IMG/VR virus record: IMGVR_UViG_3300032235_000153
Span: 1-50,302 of that record
DNA from: a virus
Reading direction: 5' to 3' (one strand)
DNA length: 50,302 bases
Positions within the stretch are counted from its first letter, which is position 1, and each line of letters starts with the position of its first letter. Both the position numbers and the translations under genes were made by a program. Below the pieces are notes generated by a model that saw only the letters and a program-made list of their open reading frames with translations, was not told the origin of the DNA and did no database searches. This document shows, one piece after another, positions 38,111 through 44,032 of the stretch.

Positions 38111-38398
38111 ATGCAATCTCATAAATGGAAGGAGTCTGCTTCCTGTAAGGACTACGACTGGAATCTATTCTTTGACAAGTACGAAGAAGATATACTGTTG
38201 CGTGGTGCTATTGATGAGCTCTGTTCTGGATGTCCAGTTGCAAGGCAATGCTTTGCTGTTGGAGTATCTCAAAAAGAATGGGGTGTCTGGGGAGGTGTCT
38301 ACCTTGAGGGTGGAAAGATCTCTAGAGAATTCAACAAACATAGAAACAAACAAAGCTGGGGAGAGACCTGGAAGTATTTAACGATGGATAGGAAATAA
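38111..38398 (+). CDS. whiB: WhiB-family Fe-S transcription regulator
   Basis: A 95-residue protein. Four cysteines at residues 12, 38, 41 and 47 are spaced as in WhiB (C...CxxCxxxxxC), followed by the G-V-W-G-G turn at 58-62 and a basic C-terminus (SREFNKHRNKQ). WhiB proteins bind a 4Fe-4S cluster and the primary sigma factor, and are restricted to actinobacteria and their phages. It could redirect host transcription or respond to redox state. Confidence 0.9.
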   Translation: MQSHKWKESASCKDYDWNLFFDKYEEDILLRGAIDELCSGCPVARQCFAVGVSQKEWGVWGGVYLEGGKISREFNKHRNKQSWGETWKYLTMDRK

Positions 38399-39227: not shown

Positions 39228-39599
39228 ATGAATAAGGCAGTAATTGATTCCTATCTTAGGAATTTGCTAGGTTCGCTACTTGGTGCAATCACCATCGTAT
39301 CGACTAGCTCTGGTATCGCATCACCAGTTGACTATGGTCTTGGTGAGTGGTTGCTAGTAGCTAATGCTCTATGGGCATCTGCAGTACCAACTCTAATTCG
39401 TTGGGTAAACAAGAAGGATCCAGCATTTGGTCTTGTTGCACAGGCAGTAGCAGCTTCTGTTACTACCAAGCTAGAAACTGCAGCTGAGGAGGCTCCTAAG
39501 AAGGCAGCTCCAAAGGCTCCAGCAAAGGCTACAACAAAGAAGCCAACTGCAAAGAAGCCTGGTGGCGGTGGCTCTAAGCCAACAAATCAAGCTCAGTAA
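39228..39599 (+). CDS. Holin-like protein with Ala/Lys/Pro tail
   Basis: A 123-residue protein with AAGGAG site. Two hydrophobic segments (about 13-30, LLGSLLGAITIVSTSSGI, and 39-58, GEWLLVANALWASAVPTLI) precede a Lys/Ala/Pro-rich tail ending in GGGGSKPTNQAQ. The membrane part resembles actinophage holins (NLLG..., EWL..ANALWA). Its tail is strikingly like that of the M23 peptidase at 34021. A strong terminator follows. Confidence 0.65.
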   Translation: MNKAVIDSYLRNLLGSLLGAITIVSTSSGIASPVDYGLGEWLLVANALWASAVPTLIRWVNKKDPAFGLVAQAVAASVTTKLETAAEEAPKKAAPKAPAKATTKKPTAKKPGGGGSKPTNQAQ

Positions 39600-39616: not shown

Positions 39617-39654
39617 GGCGGATTGCATATTGCTTGCAGTCCGCCTTTTCTTTT
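39617..39654 (+). terminator. Strong rho-independent terminator
   Basis: Eleven-pair stem GGCGGATTGCA/TGCAGTCCGCC (one T-G pair) with a seven-base loop and TTTTCTTTT tail. It ends the operon from 34021 or internal promoters. Confidence 0.9.
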
Positions 39655-39662: not shown

Positions 39663-39718
39663 ATATATGCCTGCCATTTGGGGGCAATTAACTCGCTTAA
39701 TATAAGGAGATGATACAT

Positions 39719-40156
39719 ATGGTATACACACGTACACCACACGCAGGAAGAGATCTAGACTTCTTTAGCTCTCTCGGCATTGGAAGCCTTGTTCAGGAAT
39801 TTGACAAGGCATTCGCAACCACTGATACAACCAACTACCCACCATATAACATTATCAAGTTTAATGATAATGAGTATAGCCTGCAGTTTGCAGTAGCTGG
39901 ATTCAAGAAGCCAGACATTGATATCGTAGTTGATAACGGTATCCTCAAGATCTCTGGCAAAGCACCAGAACCTCAGTTTGAGGATGGTGCTGGCTATGTT
40001 CACAAAGGAATCGCTACACGAAAGTTTAGCCGTTCATTCAGCCTACCAGAATATTTTGAGGTAGATTGGGCAGGCATGGAAGACGGTGTTCTTTCTATTG
40101 GGCTAACCAAGAAAGTTCCTGAAGAAAAGAAGCCAAAAACAATTACTATTGAATAG
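39719..40156 (+). CDS. hsp20: Small heat-shock protein, Hsp20/IbpA-like
   Basis: A 145-residue chaperone. ATG at 39719 is chosen: AAGGAG is nine bases upstream, whereas ATG 39710 abuts it. The alpha-crystallin domain spans about 35-140 with LQFAVAGFKKPDIDI, GILKISGKAP, RKFSRSFSLPEYFEV and AGMEDGVLSIGLTKKVPE. A C-terminal I-x-I-like TITIE is present, used for oligomer contacts. Hsp20 genes recur in phages of aquatic bacteria. Confidence 0.93.
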   Translation: MVYTRTPHAGRDLDFFSSLGIGSLVQEFDKAFATTDTTNYPPYNIIKFNDNEYSLQFAVAGFKKPDIDIVVDNGILKISGKAPEPQFEDGAGYVHKGIATRKFSRSFSLPEYFEVDWAGMEDGVLSIGLTKKVPEEKKPKTITIE

Positions 40157-40158
40157 TG

Positions 40159-40164
40159 TATAAT
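40159..40164 (+). promoter_or_regulatory. -10 element of candidate ncRNA
   Basis: TATAAT overlapping the end of hsp20. The expected start, six or seven bases downstream, falls at 40170-40171, the foot of the 10-bp stem. Confidence 0.5.
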
Positions 40165-40169
40165 TAAAG

Positions 40170-40264
40170 AGTCCCCACACAGGGCAAGGTTTGTTCATTA
40201 CCTTAGGATGATGTTAGTTACCATTTTATGCTGGGCAACGCCAAGGTGCTGTGTGGGGATTTTA
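40170..40264 (+). ncRNA. Candidate ~95-nt structured RNA closed by a 10-bp stem
   Basis: TCCCCACACA (40172-40181) pairs perfectly with TGTGTGGGGA (40250-40259), followed by TTTTAT. Inside are AAGG/CCTT (40186-40189 with 40201-40204), a GGC-AAC-GCC mini-hairpin (40234-40242) and two copies of GGGCAA. A -10 lies just upstream, so a discrete transcript with its own terminator is predicted. No ORF. No known class recognised. Confidence 0.55.
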
Positions 40265-40273
40265 TAATTTCCG

Positions 40274-40282
40274 TGGTATAAT
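40274..40282 (+). promoter_or_regulatory. Extended -10 promoter (TGGTATAAT), leaderless gene
   Basis: TGG plus TATAAT, exactly six bases before ATG 40289. Confidence 0.55.
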
Positions 40283-40288
40283 AACAGC

Positions 40289-40570
40289 ATGACTACACAC
40301 GCCACTATTAGCCTGTCCAGCGAGACAGCCACACGACTTACTCCTAACGGACTTCACTCTGGAATGGATATCACCATTCAGAATGTGAGCGAAGCAAACT
40401 ATGTTTACATTGGTGGTGAAGGAGTTAGCCTTCAAGATTTTGGATACCGTCTAAATCCTGGTTCAGCCATTTCTTTTGAGCTTCCAGGAAAAGATGCATT
40501 GTATGCAATTGCAGATACCAACGAAACCATGGTGGCAGTGCTAAAGACTAATCTAGAGGTTGGTATCTAA
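40289..40570 (+). CDS. Small structural protein, tail/capsid decoration-like
   Basis: A 93-residue beta-rich protein (GMDITIQNVSEANYVYIGGEG, then NPGSAISFELPGKDALYAIAD, split here by its loop). It resembles small beta-barrel proteins placed before phage fibre genes. There is no ribosome site, and the -10 is six bases upstream. It ends in TAATG overlap with the fibre gene. Confidence 0.6.
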   Translation: MTTHATISLSSETATRLTPNGLHSGMDITIQNVSEANYVYIGGEGVSLQDFGYRLNPGSAISFELPGKDALYAIADTNETMVAVLKTNLEVGI

Positions 40571-42972
40571 TGGCAAGATTTTCTGGTGCATCTGGTAGCG
40601 GTTCTGGTGGTCCAGGACCAAGGGGTCCACAGGGACCAGAGGGTGACTCCGCATATGAAGTAGCAGTAGAGAATGGTTTTGTTGGTACAGAGCAGGAGTG
40701 GCTAGATTCGCTTGGCGGTAACGGCACTGCAGATATTGCTGACTTTATCTTTGCAAGTGGAGAAGGACAAAGCACAATTAGTCTTCCTGGCGACAAGCAA
40801 ATGAGAATTGAATCAGGAGCAGAAAGCGATTTATATCTTGATGCAGGCGATGATCTTTATCTAACCACTATCGAAGACGACATTCATATAAGAGCAGGGG
40901 ATGACATTAGGTTTACCTCCAGCTACGACGGGGATGAGGGAACAGAATACTACTGGAGAATGAATTCAGAAGGAAGGTTTCAGCTTCCTGGCGATGGATA
41001 CATTTCAAACCCTTATCAAGAAACATCTACACCAGGAACCTATACAACTTCATTTAATGACAACTATTTAAATGATCAGTCTGGACTAAATCAGACATAT
41101 TCTGTTGCTTTGCCAGTAGATGGAAACACTCTATGGTTTGCAAATAACGGCAGCATCTTTACATCACCAGTAACAATAACTTTTGCAGATTCAACTACAA
41201 CAACTACCGTGGCAATATATGACGCAACTAGTCAGGGAACTCCTGCAGTTATTTTTCAATGGGATGACGAGCAACGCAGCAAGTCTTATGCAGATACTTT
41301 TCCATTACTTATTGCTGTCGACTACAATCAAATTAATTCTGGCCCATCGGTTATTATTTTAGATCCAGTAGAATGGTACGATAGTGACCAACACATAGTT
41401 ATTGATGCTACTGCTCCAAACCACATTCACATTCGTGCTGGTGGAGAAATAGACCAGTCTACTGCAGATCTATTCCTTGGCGGAGAAGATACTAATGTTA
41501 AAGTGAGCGATTCTTATGGCACTGTAAATATCAATGCTGCAGACATTACAATATCTTCTCAAGCTGCCCCATCAGCTCTAAATATTAATACTTATACTGG
41601 TGCTATTATTAATAGTGCAAGAACCTCTGAGTATGCCCCTGAAGACAAGATTGTAGCAACTCTTGGAGATTTAATCCCTGGTATTCAGGGTGAGCCAGGT
41701 CCAGCTGGTGCTGACGGTGCGGATGGGGCTGACGCTCCCACAAATAGAATCTATGCTGGTGACTTTGAGGCAATCATTGACGAAACTGGAACCACAACAT
41801 TCGATGGAAATATAGTTCCAAGTGCTGCCACCTATAGCCTAGGAACGGCAGCTCTTCCTTGGCAGGATATTTACGTATCTGCTGGATCTATTAACATTGC
41901 AGACGCTGACATGGAAACAGACTCAGTATCTATTAAAAACACCGAAGGCTATTTGGTGCTAAGTCGTGGTGGACTTAAGGTAACAGATAACACTAATGAG
42001 TTTGAAGTATTCCAGTTAAATCCAGACGGCACCTTAACATTAAAGTCAAATGTTACTGAGGGAATAACAACCGCTGCCTTAGAAGTTATTGGTTCGTTAA
42101 ATGGAACTTCCATTGATCCAGGAAATACTGGAGTCTTGCTTCACCTAACTGGACTTAGAGATAGCCCATCTAGAATTTATAACGATTCATACGGTACTGG
42201 CGTCTACTCGGCCTACATCGGTCGTCATGCCCGTGGTACATCAGAAGACCCAGAAGGACTAATTGCAGGAGATGTCATCAGTCGTATTGGTGGCAATGCC
42301 TTCTTGTCTTCTGGTCAATTTGCACCTATTTCAAATGTTCGCATGGACTTCGTTGCCAAAGAGAATCAAACAGCAACTGCAAGAGGAAATGAAATCCAGT
42401 TTTGGACAACTCCAAATGGTGCAACCAGCCCAACTCGTTCATTTACATTAGAAAATACTGGTATTACCTTTCCAGATAACACTAAGCAAACAACAGCCTA
42501 TAAGGGCACTTCTGCGTTTGGTGGATACTATGGCTCATTCTACGACACTACAAATCTACTGCTAACAAGTGCCACAACTGCCTACCCACTTCCCATAGGA
42601 GCAACGGCAGAGGCAAATGGTGTTTCTATTGCTTTGGGTTCTCGGATTACGGTTGCAAACGCTGGTGTCTACAACATTCAGTTCTCGGCACAGCTAGACA
42701 AGACAGATAGTAGCGATGACCTAGTAAACATTTGGTTCTCTAAAAATGGAACAAACATAGCCAACTCAAACACTCAAGTTACGGTGATGGGTAACGGCGG
42801 TAAGTATCTAGCGTCATGGAACTATGTCTTGACACTAGCTGCTAACGACTATATTCAAATTATGCTTCAGTCACCAGACACCCACATGAGAGTTATAGCC
42901 TCTGGCACACAGACAAATCCTGCTCGTCCAGCAGTTCCTTCAAGCATCGTGACCGTAACTCAAGTAGCATAA
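40570..42972 (+). CDS. Collagen-like tail fibre with C1q-like tip
   Basis: An 800-residue protein. After a Gly/Ser N-terminus it has a short collagen Gly-X-Y run (GPGPRGPQGPEGD) near residue 15-28 and another (GEPGPAGADGADGAD) near 375-390. In between and after are repetitive beta segments typical of trimeric fibre shafts (for example LYLDAGDDLYLTT, IHIRAGDDIRF). The last ~140 residues, beginning after FPDNTKQTTAY, resemble a C1q/TNF-like jelly-roll (AGVYNIQFSAQLDK, YVLTLAANDYIQIML). This tip is a good candidate for host receptor binding. Confidence 0.8.
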   Translation: MARFSGASGSGSGGPGPRGPQGPEGDSAYEVAVENGFVGTEQEWLDSLGGNGTADIADFIFASGEGQSTISLPGDKQMRIESGAESDLYLDAGDDLYLTTIEDDIHIRAGDDIRFTSSYDGDEGTEYYWRMNSEGRFQLPGDGYISNPYQETSTPGTYTTSFNDNYLNDQSGLNQTYSVALPVDGNTLWFANNGSIFTSPVTITFADSTTTTTVAIYDATSQGTPAVIFQWDDEQRSKSYADTFPLLIAVDYNQINSGPSVIILDPVEWYDSDQHIVIDATAPNHIHIRAGGEIDQSTADLFLGGEDTNVKVSDSYGTVNINAADITISSQAAPSALNINTYTGAIINSARTSEYAPEDKIVATLGDLIPGIQGEPGPAGADGADGADAPTNRIYAGDFEAIIDETGTTTFDGNIVPSAATYSLGTAALPWQDIYVSAGSINIADADMETDSVSIKNTEGYLVLSRGGLKVTDNTNEFEVFQLNPDGTLTLKSNVTEGITTAALEVIGSLNGTSIDPGNTGVLLHLTGLRDSPSRIYNDSYGTGVYSAYIGRHARGTSEDPEGLIAGDVISRIGGNAFLSSGQFAPISNVRMDFVAKENQTATARGNEIQFWTTPNGATSPTRSFTLENTGITFPDNTKQTTAYKGTSAFGGYYGSFYDTTNLLLTSATTAYPLPIGATAEANGVSIALGSRITVANAGVYNIQFSAQLDKTDSSDDLVNIWFSKNGTNIANSNTQVTVMGNGGKYLASWNYVLTLAANDYIQIMLQSPDTHMRVIASGTQTNPARPAVPSSIVTVTQVA

Positions 42973-43039: not shown

Positions 43040-44032
43040 ATGCCATATCACGTTGGAGAAAAGGGATCGTACGGTTGCTCAGGCTACCCTGCCCTAAAAG
43101 ATGACGGTACCGTAATGGGTTGCCACAAGACAGCTGAAGAAGCTGCTAATCAAATTTATGCTATTAACCAGTCTGAAGGTAACATTGACGAAAAAGAAAT
43201 AGTTACTAATGACGGTGGTATGGGTATTAAGAATCCAGATGAGTGGCCAGTAAAGAAGGCAGACCCTTGTTGGGAAGGCTACACTCAGCGTGGCATGAAG
43301 CCAGGGGATGGTGGCAGGATGGTTCCTAACTGTGTTCCAGTATCTAAGGCAGATGCTGAGATCACTGAGGGTGACTTCGTAATCGCACTTACATCTGAGG
43401 GACCAGTTGTTGGTCAGGTAGAGCATGTGATGCGTGAAGGTGGAACATATGGAGAACCAGGCAATCCATATGCAGTTCAGTCTACACCAGAAAATCCAGC
43501 GGTAGCTATTAGAATGCTGGAAGAAGAAGACGGAGTATACTATTACACACCTTATTCTATTGGTGCACTCATGTCTGATGTAAATAGAATTAACATGCCT
43601 AATATTAGTATGGAAGATTATGAAGATGAAAAACTTATGGACAAAGCTGAGGGCTATTCTCCTCCTGCTGGTGCCAGGTCTGCTGCTCGTCGTGCTATTA
43701 AGTTCAAAGAAGACGGCAAAGCCAAAGGTGCAGGAACTGCTGTTGGATGGACTAGAGCTAGACAGTTGGCTAATGGAGAGACACTCTCGCTCAGCACAGT
43801 AAAGCGTATGTATTCTTTCTTCTCTCGTCATGAGAAGGCAAGCAAGGGTGGTAAGGATTGGGGTAACCAGGCCAACCCATCTAACGGATACATCATGTGG
43901 CTTGCATGGGGTGGAGACGCTGGCTTCTCTTGGTCACGTAGAATTGTTGAAAGTGCAAAGAACAAGGCACTATTTGCTGACTTTGGTAAGGACTGGACCA
44001 CTTCTCGTGGTCTACCAGATCTGTTTAGATAA
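43040..44032 (+). CDS. Unknown multidomain phage protein
   Basis: A 330-residue protein. The N-terminal ~45 residues (GCSGYPALKDDGTVMGCHKT then AANQIYAIN) are a short module I recall from actinophage head proteins, including ones fused to maturation proteases. The middle (about 105-175) is a beta domain (GDFVIALTSEGPVVGQVEHV). The C-terminal ~120 residues (PPAGARSAARRAIKFKEDG, then WGGDAGFSWSRRIVE) are basic and helical and recur in phage proteins near capsid or portal genes. No protease catalytic residues are evident. The gene lacks a ribosome site. Confidence 0.55.
   Translation: MPYHVGEKGSYGCSGYPALKDDGTVMGCHKTAEEAANQIYAINQSEGNIDEKEIVTNDGGMGIKNPDEWPVKKADPCWEGYTQRGMKPGDGGRMVPNCVPVSKADAEITEGDFVIALTSEGPVVGQVEHVMREGGTYGEPGNPYAVQSTPENPAVAIRMLEEEDGVYYYTPYSIGALMSDVNRINMPNISMEDYEDEKLMDKAEGYSPPAGARSAARRAIKFKEDGKAKGAGTAVGWTRARQLANGETLSLSTVKRMYSFFSRHEKASKGGKDWGNQANPSNGYIMWLAWGGDAGFSWSRRIVESAKNKALFADFGKDWTTSRGLPDLFR

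Follow-up and report, generated by a model that had tools for sequence, protein, structure and literature searches.

Sequence comparison identifies a previously uncatalogued family of structured RNAs encoded by viruses of freshwater-type actinobacteria, one member of which lies at positions 40159-40264 of the window (the entire 50,302-nt stretch of viral DNA analyzed here). The members of this family are probably small structured phage RNAs that have their own transcription units and act in trans. Read directly from the sequence, the window element consists of a -10 box, a closing stem, a folded interior and a short U-tract. The site (40159-40265) is flanked by a gene for an HSP20 protein (39710-40156; PF00011, 2.5e-18), a frequent 5' neighbor of the RNA according to neighbor clustering, and by a leaderless gene (TATAAT at 40277, ATG at 40289). 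The predicted RNA is about 90 nt long, within a family range of about 75-131 nt.

All features of the element are on the plus strand. The -10 box TATAAT (40159-40164), with TG immediately 5' of it, comes right after the HSP20 stop codon. The initial annotation had noted a perfect 10-bp helix with a predicted transcription start at its foot, and both are borne out: the helix pairs 40172-40181 with 40250-40259, is lengthened to 12 bp by the end pairs G40171-U40260 and G40182-C40249, and has the predicted start as its first base. The strands of this closing stem, P1, are GUCCCCACACAG (40171-40182) and CUGUGUGGGGAU (40249-40260), both delineated by sequence and covariation. Inside P1 lie an internal-loop element, GGRCAA (40182-40187), which the alignment shows to be conserved only in the class of the window; the 5' strand of a second stem, P2 (GGUUUGUUCA, 40188-40197); the first core half-site, CUUAGGAUGA (40202-40211; CUURGGAUGA in the family); a variable spacer (40212-40214), UGU in the window and 1-7 nt in the relatives; the second core half-site, UAGUUACC (40215-40222); and the 3' strand of P2, UGGGCAACGCC (40232-40242). 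P2 is defined by the predicted fold and by covariation of its strands. The fold also includes a possible apical helix, P3, formed by AGGAUG and CAUUUU around both half-sites (40205-40227). The U-tract UUUUAU, recognized earlier as TTTTAT after the helix, occupies 40260-40265 and is the probable end of the transcript, given the U enrichment that follows the family RNAs. The interior is indeed structured, as had been proposed: the minimum free energy of the window RNA is -42.3 kcal/mol compared with -25.2 +/- 3.6 kcal/mol for dinucleotide shuffles (z = -4.8), and none of the 200 shuffles folded as stably.

Relatives were sought by scanning IMG/VR with a 16-mer from the stem and subsequently with patterns derived from the core. 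Reading the matches distinguished true relatives from chance occurrences, which made up about half of the initial 27 viral matches to the 16-mer. After removal of duplicates, the true relatives amounted to 37 distinct sequences, all on IMG/VR phage contigs. The core defined this set, P1 was absent from the core-based patterns, and the -10 box was required by the later patterns and not by the first ones. The shared anatomy is TATAAT-N4..8-[P1]-CUURGGAUGA-N1..7-UAGUUAC(C)-[P1'], with variable stretches on either side of the core and often U residues at the end. P1 is mostly 10-14 bp long (6 bp uninterrupted in L020). Family members carry a TATAAT-like box 4-8 nt 5' of P1, with TACAAT found once and probably TATACT in L156, and its distance from the stem is nearly fixed in every class. 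Each record contains one copy of the RNA; the second, weak match in three records is the same site on the opposite strand. The window belongs to the largest class, which additionally conserves GGRCAAGG and CUGGGC. The two GGGCAA copies singled out in the initial annotation are present (40182-40187 and 40233-40238, the second one within the 3' strand of P2), and the conserved core, CUURGGAUGA...UAGUUACC, sits between them; they are parts of these class elements and not a conserved feature of the family, as the second copy varies and other classes lack both.

The structure closed by P1 is, on comparative evidence, real across the family. A closing stem with a score of at least 11 was found at all 37 distinct matches to the -10 box plus the core, whereas only 8 of the 409 remaining TATAAT sites at these loci had one. 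The P1 strands are built from at least five unrelated sequences (GUCCCCACACAG, GGCUGGUGUGAGG, GGUUCUGUGGC, GUAGUGGGGAGUG, GUACGGUAAGCAAA and others), and each pairs with its own partner at a score of 17-21 (17.3-21), whereas swaps between unrelated classes yield a mean of 6.8 and a maximum of 12. The initial annotation named a lack of covarying pairs in relatives as a refuting outcome; such pairs are present. In the alignment of the window's class, 99.6% of the P1 cells are paired, 3 of its 10 pairs show compensatory changes (UA for CG and similar), and changes on both sides number 6, as opposed to 1.2 in shuffles. None of 5000 permutations of P1 strands matched the energy of the actual pairings, and the actual P2 strands were better than permuted ones in 4986 of 5000 trials (14 of 5000 were not); both tests ignore the relatedness of the sequences. 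A four-arm cloverleaf derived from the first alignment was replaced, for the window's class, by a rod consisting of P1 and P2 because the P2 strands covary. P3 is nearly invariant in this class and absent in some others; its pairing carries no covariation signal because its strands hardly vary.

The bipartite core, CUURGGAUGA plus UAGUUAC(C), is nearly constant across the 37 distinct sequences while P1, P2 and the spacer vary, a constancy that is partly built in, given that the searches demanded most of the core. Relaxed patterns permitted other changes, and the members showed only A or G at one place, one inserted U and different spacer lengths. The presence of two half-sites around a variable tip suggests a hairpin with non-canonical pairs, and the constancy of the core within unrelated stems hints that the RNA binds or redirects a single specific partner in the infected cell. 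An alternative is that the promoter and stem-loop serve as a boundary element in DNA or transcript that insulates late units, the RNA itself being functionless. The RNA is located at unit boundaries, as this reading predicts, but an insulator has no need of an almost invariant 18-nt core within unrelated stems, and we consider it very unlikely.

The core also contains an ATG, and the statement in the initial annotation that the element lacks an open reading frame has to be amended: a 19-codon frame runs from 40208 to 40267 in the window, although it is not conserved in the relatives. The idea that the element is a micro-ORF draws on this frame and on the recurrence of M-x-S-Y in several members. 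However, the relatives have spacers of 1, 2, 3, 5 and 7 nt behind GGATGA, which alter the reading frame or close it, the frame ends after two or three codons in L121 and L155, and the covariation is at the nucleotide level, so that the probability of this reading is close to negligible.

The window is a 50-kb virus record, probably incomplete, with 42% G+C. It encodes a DnaE-type polymerase, primase, helicase, terminase, ribonucleotide reductase, tail genes and tRNA arrays, and its DNA polymerase is closest to those of Streptomyces phages of the Stanwilliamsviridae, with at most 57% identity. WhiB, a marker of actinophages (PMC10202952), was detected above the cut-off in 19 of the 22 carrier records, and the carriers are therefore taken to be actinophages. 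HSP20 is encoded in 11 of the 22, and because only half of the carriers have it, we regard it as a frequent neighbor rather than a necessary partner. The host order would be Nanopelagicales, judging from the G+C content, the leaderless genes and the relatives. The WhiB-like gene of the window itself spans 38111-38398 (PF02467 match at 38126-38299) and supports an actinobacterial host. Among the actinophage contigs, ARAGORN predicts tmRNA genes in those of L039 (2648-2891) and L047 (6021-6326), and the Rfam tmRNA model also has a match in the L039 record (G025).

The Rfam search proposed in the initial annotation, which likewise listed a match to a known class as a refuting outcome, found none. 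With Rfam 15, the element had no match at the gathering threshold; relaxing the cut-off to E <= 10 added only a weak snoRNA match that lies outside the element and carries no meaning. Six loci of other classes yielded tRNAs only. Neither ARAGORN nor covariance models detected a tRNA or tmRNA at the locus, the tRNAs of the window being elsewhere. Nucleotide searches of cultured phages with the window's class and two other classes returned chance fragments only. Three genomes of Stanwilliamsviridae, the cultured phages closest by DNA polymerase, contained no core within 2 mismatches (there was one 3-mismatch match) and no model match. The exact core was not found in GTDB genomes, and the 24 GTDB matches to a looser pattern were dismissed as chance, none fitting the model at E <= 1.

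Several known RNAs bear a general likeness to the new family. It is similar to 6S RNA as an autonomous small RNA with its ends paired around an open or partly open interior, but is about half as long, lacks the long rod with a symmetrical central bubble and has no Rfam match; to our knowledge, the invariant core resembles no feature of 6S RNA. The stable RNAs C and D of phage T4 are encoded beside a tRNA cluster and have no assigned function. They resemble the new family as stable phage RNAs, two members of the latter heading a tRNA array, and differ in the phages that encode them and in length. The bacterial Y RNA (YrlA), which is associated with Rsr/Ro60, is a small RNA with paired ends that is linked to tRNA-like modules. 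Small size and paired ends are shared with the new RNA, and identity with the Y RNA/Ro60 system was rejected, given that there was no Rfam match and that the TROVE protein was detected in none of 16 carrier records, which are incomplete. By eye, the string ACAGGGCAA is what we take to be common to the window RNA and the c-di-GMP-I (GEMM) riboswitch; there was no covariance-model match at E <= 10, and this string is missing in other classes.

A role in the virion or in packaging, similar to that of the phi29 pRNA, could be suggested by the place that the RNA usually has among late genes, close to HSP20 and to genes with the N-terminal domain of head maturation proteases. Against such a role, 15 kb separate the RNA from the gene of the terminase large subunit in the window, the Rfam Phage_pRNA model gave no match in the window either at the gathering threshold or at E <= 10, and we know of no need for a pRNA in large TerL-type actinophages; we consider this role extremely unlikely. 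The protein encoded at 43040-44032 resembles head maturation proteases (phrog_80) over no more than its first ~60 residues; it belongs to the family found most often among the genes 3' of the RNA. Between the RNA and this gene, the window contains a cassette (40289-42972) of a 93-aa gene and an 800-aa collagen-like tail-type gene; in L020 and L055, this cassette is found 5' of the RNA.

The genomic context favors an autonomous RNA in most of the family. The stable, autonomous phage RNA envisaged in the initial annotation is supported by the nearly fixed promoter spacing, the covariation of P1, the U-tracts and the leaderless promoters downstream. UUU occurs within 8 nt past the RNA end in 61% of the members, compared with 11% in the background, and a leaderless promoter is found downstream in 17 of 36, against a background of 8%. 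In the window, the next gene has, as annotated, a promoter of its own, TATAAT at 40277-40282, six bases ahead of its ATG (40289); this leaderless layout, TATAAT-N6-ATG (40277-40288), is also frequent 3' of the RNA in the relatives. The U-tract is weak or absent in some members, a loop of 70 nt makes a poor intrinsic terminator, and a terminator scan called none on the strand of the RNA at the window locus. In L036, L038 and L042, the RNA is directly 3' of a hairpin resembling an intrinsic terminator. A similar hairpin, a strong intrinsic terminator at 39617-39645 (GGCGGATTGC...GCAGTCCGCC TTTTCTTTT), follows gene 39228-39599 in the window; in the three relatives, the hairpin stands right before the promoter of the RNA. 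The position of the RNA varies: it adjoins HSP20 in the window and lies ~0.8 kb beyond the HSP20 gene in L031. Neighbor clustering shows several, unrelated families of downstream genes.

The initial annotation saw no clear link between the RNA and the next gene, which is true of most members but not of a few. In L050, L074/L076 and L138/L121, a ribosome-binding site and a gene come directly after the RNA, and no promoter separates them from it; in L137 (1757-1914) and L155 (1628-1840), the RNA lies 4-7 nt ahead of a tRNA array, the first gene of which is tRNA-Asn(GTT) in both phages. Such a position at the head of a unit is seen in L137, L155, L138 and L074, and not in most of the window's class. 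These loci bear on the possibility that the RNA is a cis-acting leader which, from +1, acts on its own polymerase, by antitermination or anti-pausing as in put, or else controls the next gene in the manner of a riboswitch or attenuator. Apart from the read-through into genes with a ribosome-binding site and into untranslated tRNA arrays, where antitermination would help, a leader is consistent with the nearly fixed distance of the start from the -10 box in every class and with the orientation of the downstream gene, which matches that of the RNA at nearly all loci, as do most neighboring genes. The putRNA, a phage RNA of similar size (~70 nt), binds RNA polymerase, and putL of phage HK022 is located just downstream of PL (PMC9378689). 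HK022 putL and putR are likewise small, highly structured phage RNAs near a phage promoter. However, they form two stem-loops without a closing stem joining the ends and act in cis on the early genes of a lambdoid phage, whereas the new RNA is closed by P1, often has its own U-tract and is mostly encoded in the late part of actinophage genomes; the sequences showed no relation. Furthermore, the window's class has the U-tract after the RNA, the next gene often has a leaderless promoter of its own, the downstream genes show no relationship to one another, and a polymerase reading on would have little to transcribe because the following unit often consists of only 1-3 genes before a strand switch. 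A leader is the less likely reading, though it deserves consideration. Autonomy and the leader-like arrangements can both hold if processing frees the RNA in the tRNA-array and gene cases.

If the RNA acts in trans, its partner could be another RNA or a protein. A base-pairing small RNA, the half-sites of which would anneal to a single conserved RNA of the host or the phage while the spacer covers a bulge in the target, is compatible with the bipartite layout and with the sole common substitution in half-site 1, A to G, which still pairs with U. Target sites complementary to the core would read GGUAACUA...UCAUCCYAAG. No complementarity to the core half-sites was detected in E. coli 16S, 23S or 5S rRNA; complementarity to phage tRNAs was no better than for shuffled half-sites, 91% of which equaled the best match; and the longest complementary runs within the window are, by our estimate, about as chance predicts. 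The pairing of CUUAGGA with the anticodon loop of tRNA-Arg was discarded, being not above shuffles. Within this range of targets, a base-pairing small RNA seems unlikely, and because pairing with rRNA, phage tRNAs and the phage's own transcripts does not exceed chance, a protein partner is the more likely reading.

In the favored model of a trans-acting RNA, events would run as follows. The host RNA polymerase would produce the RNA from the phage's own promoter, the -10 box apparently setting the start at or near the foot of P1. Sequence comparison indicates that the 5' and 3' ends then pair into P1, enclosing the bipartite core, with the surrounding arms free to change between classes. P1 would protect both ends of the RNA and, jointly with the U-tract, terminate the transcript. 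The core, displayed in a hairpin or a loop whose tip varies, would be the surface on which a single conserved partner binds, and the RNA would sequester or redirect this partner during infection. The partner could be a host protein or a host machine, for example the one for transcription or translation, or else an RNA-binding protein of the phage. The earlier proposal of a regulator or sponge of host factors is plausible. More tentatively, this viral RNA class possibly takes over a central actinobacterial machine, such as RNA polymerase, the ribosome or an RNA-binding protein, through its 18-nt bipartite core, which would have been kept constant through several rebuildings of the remaining RNA.

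Few phage-encoded structured RNAs are known, and most of these come from model phages. The RNA described here is present once per genome in many phages of probably streamlined freshwater actinobacteria, which are among the most abundant bacteria in lakes. The alignment renders every structural claim directly testable, and the nearly invariant core offers a single, well-defined bait for the factor that it may bind.
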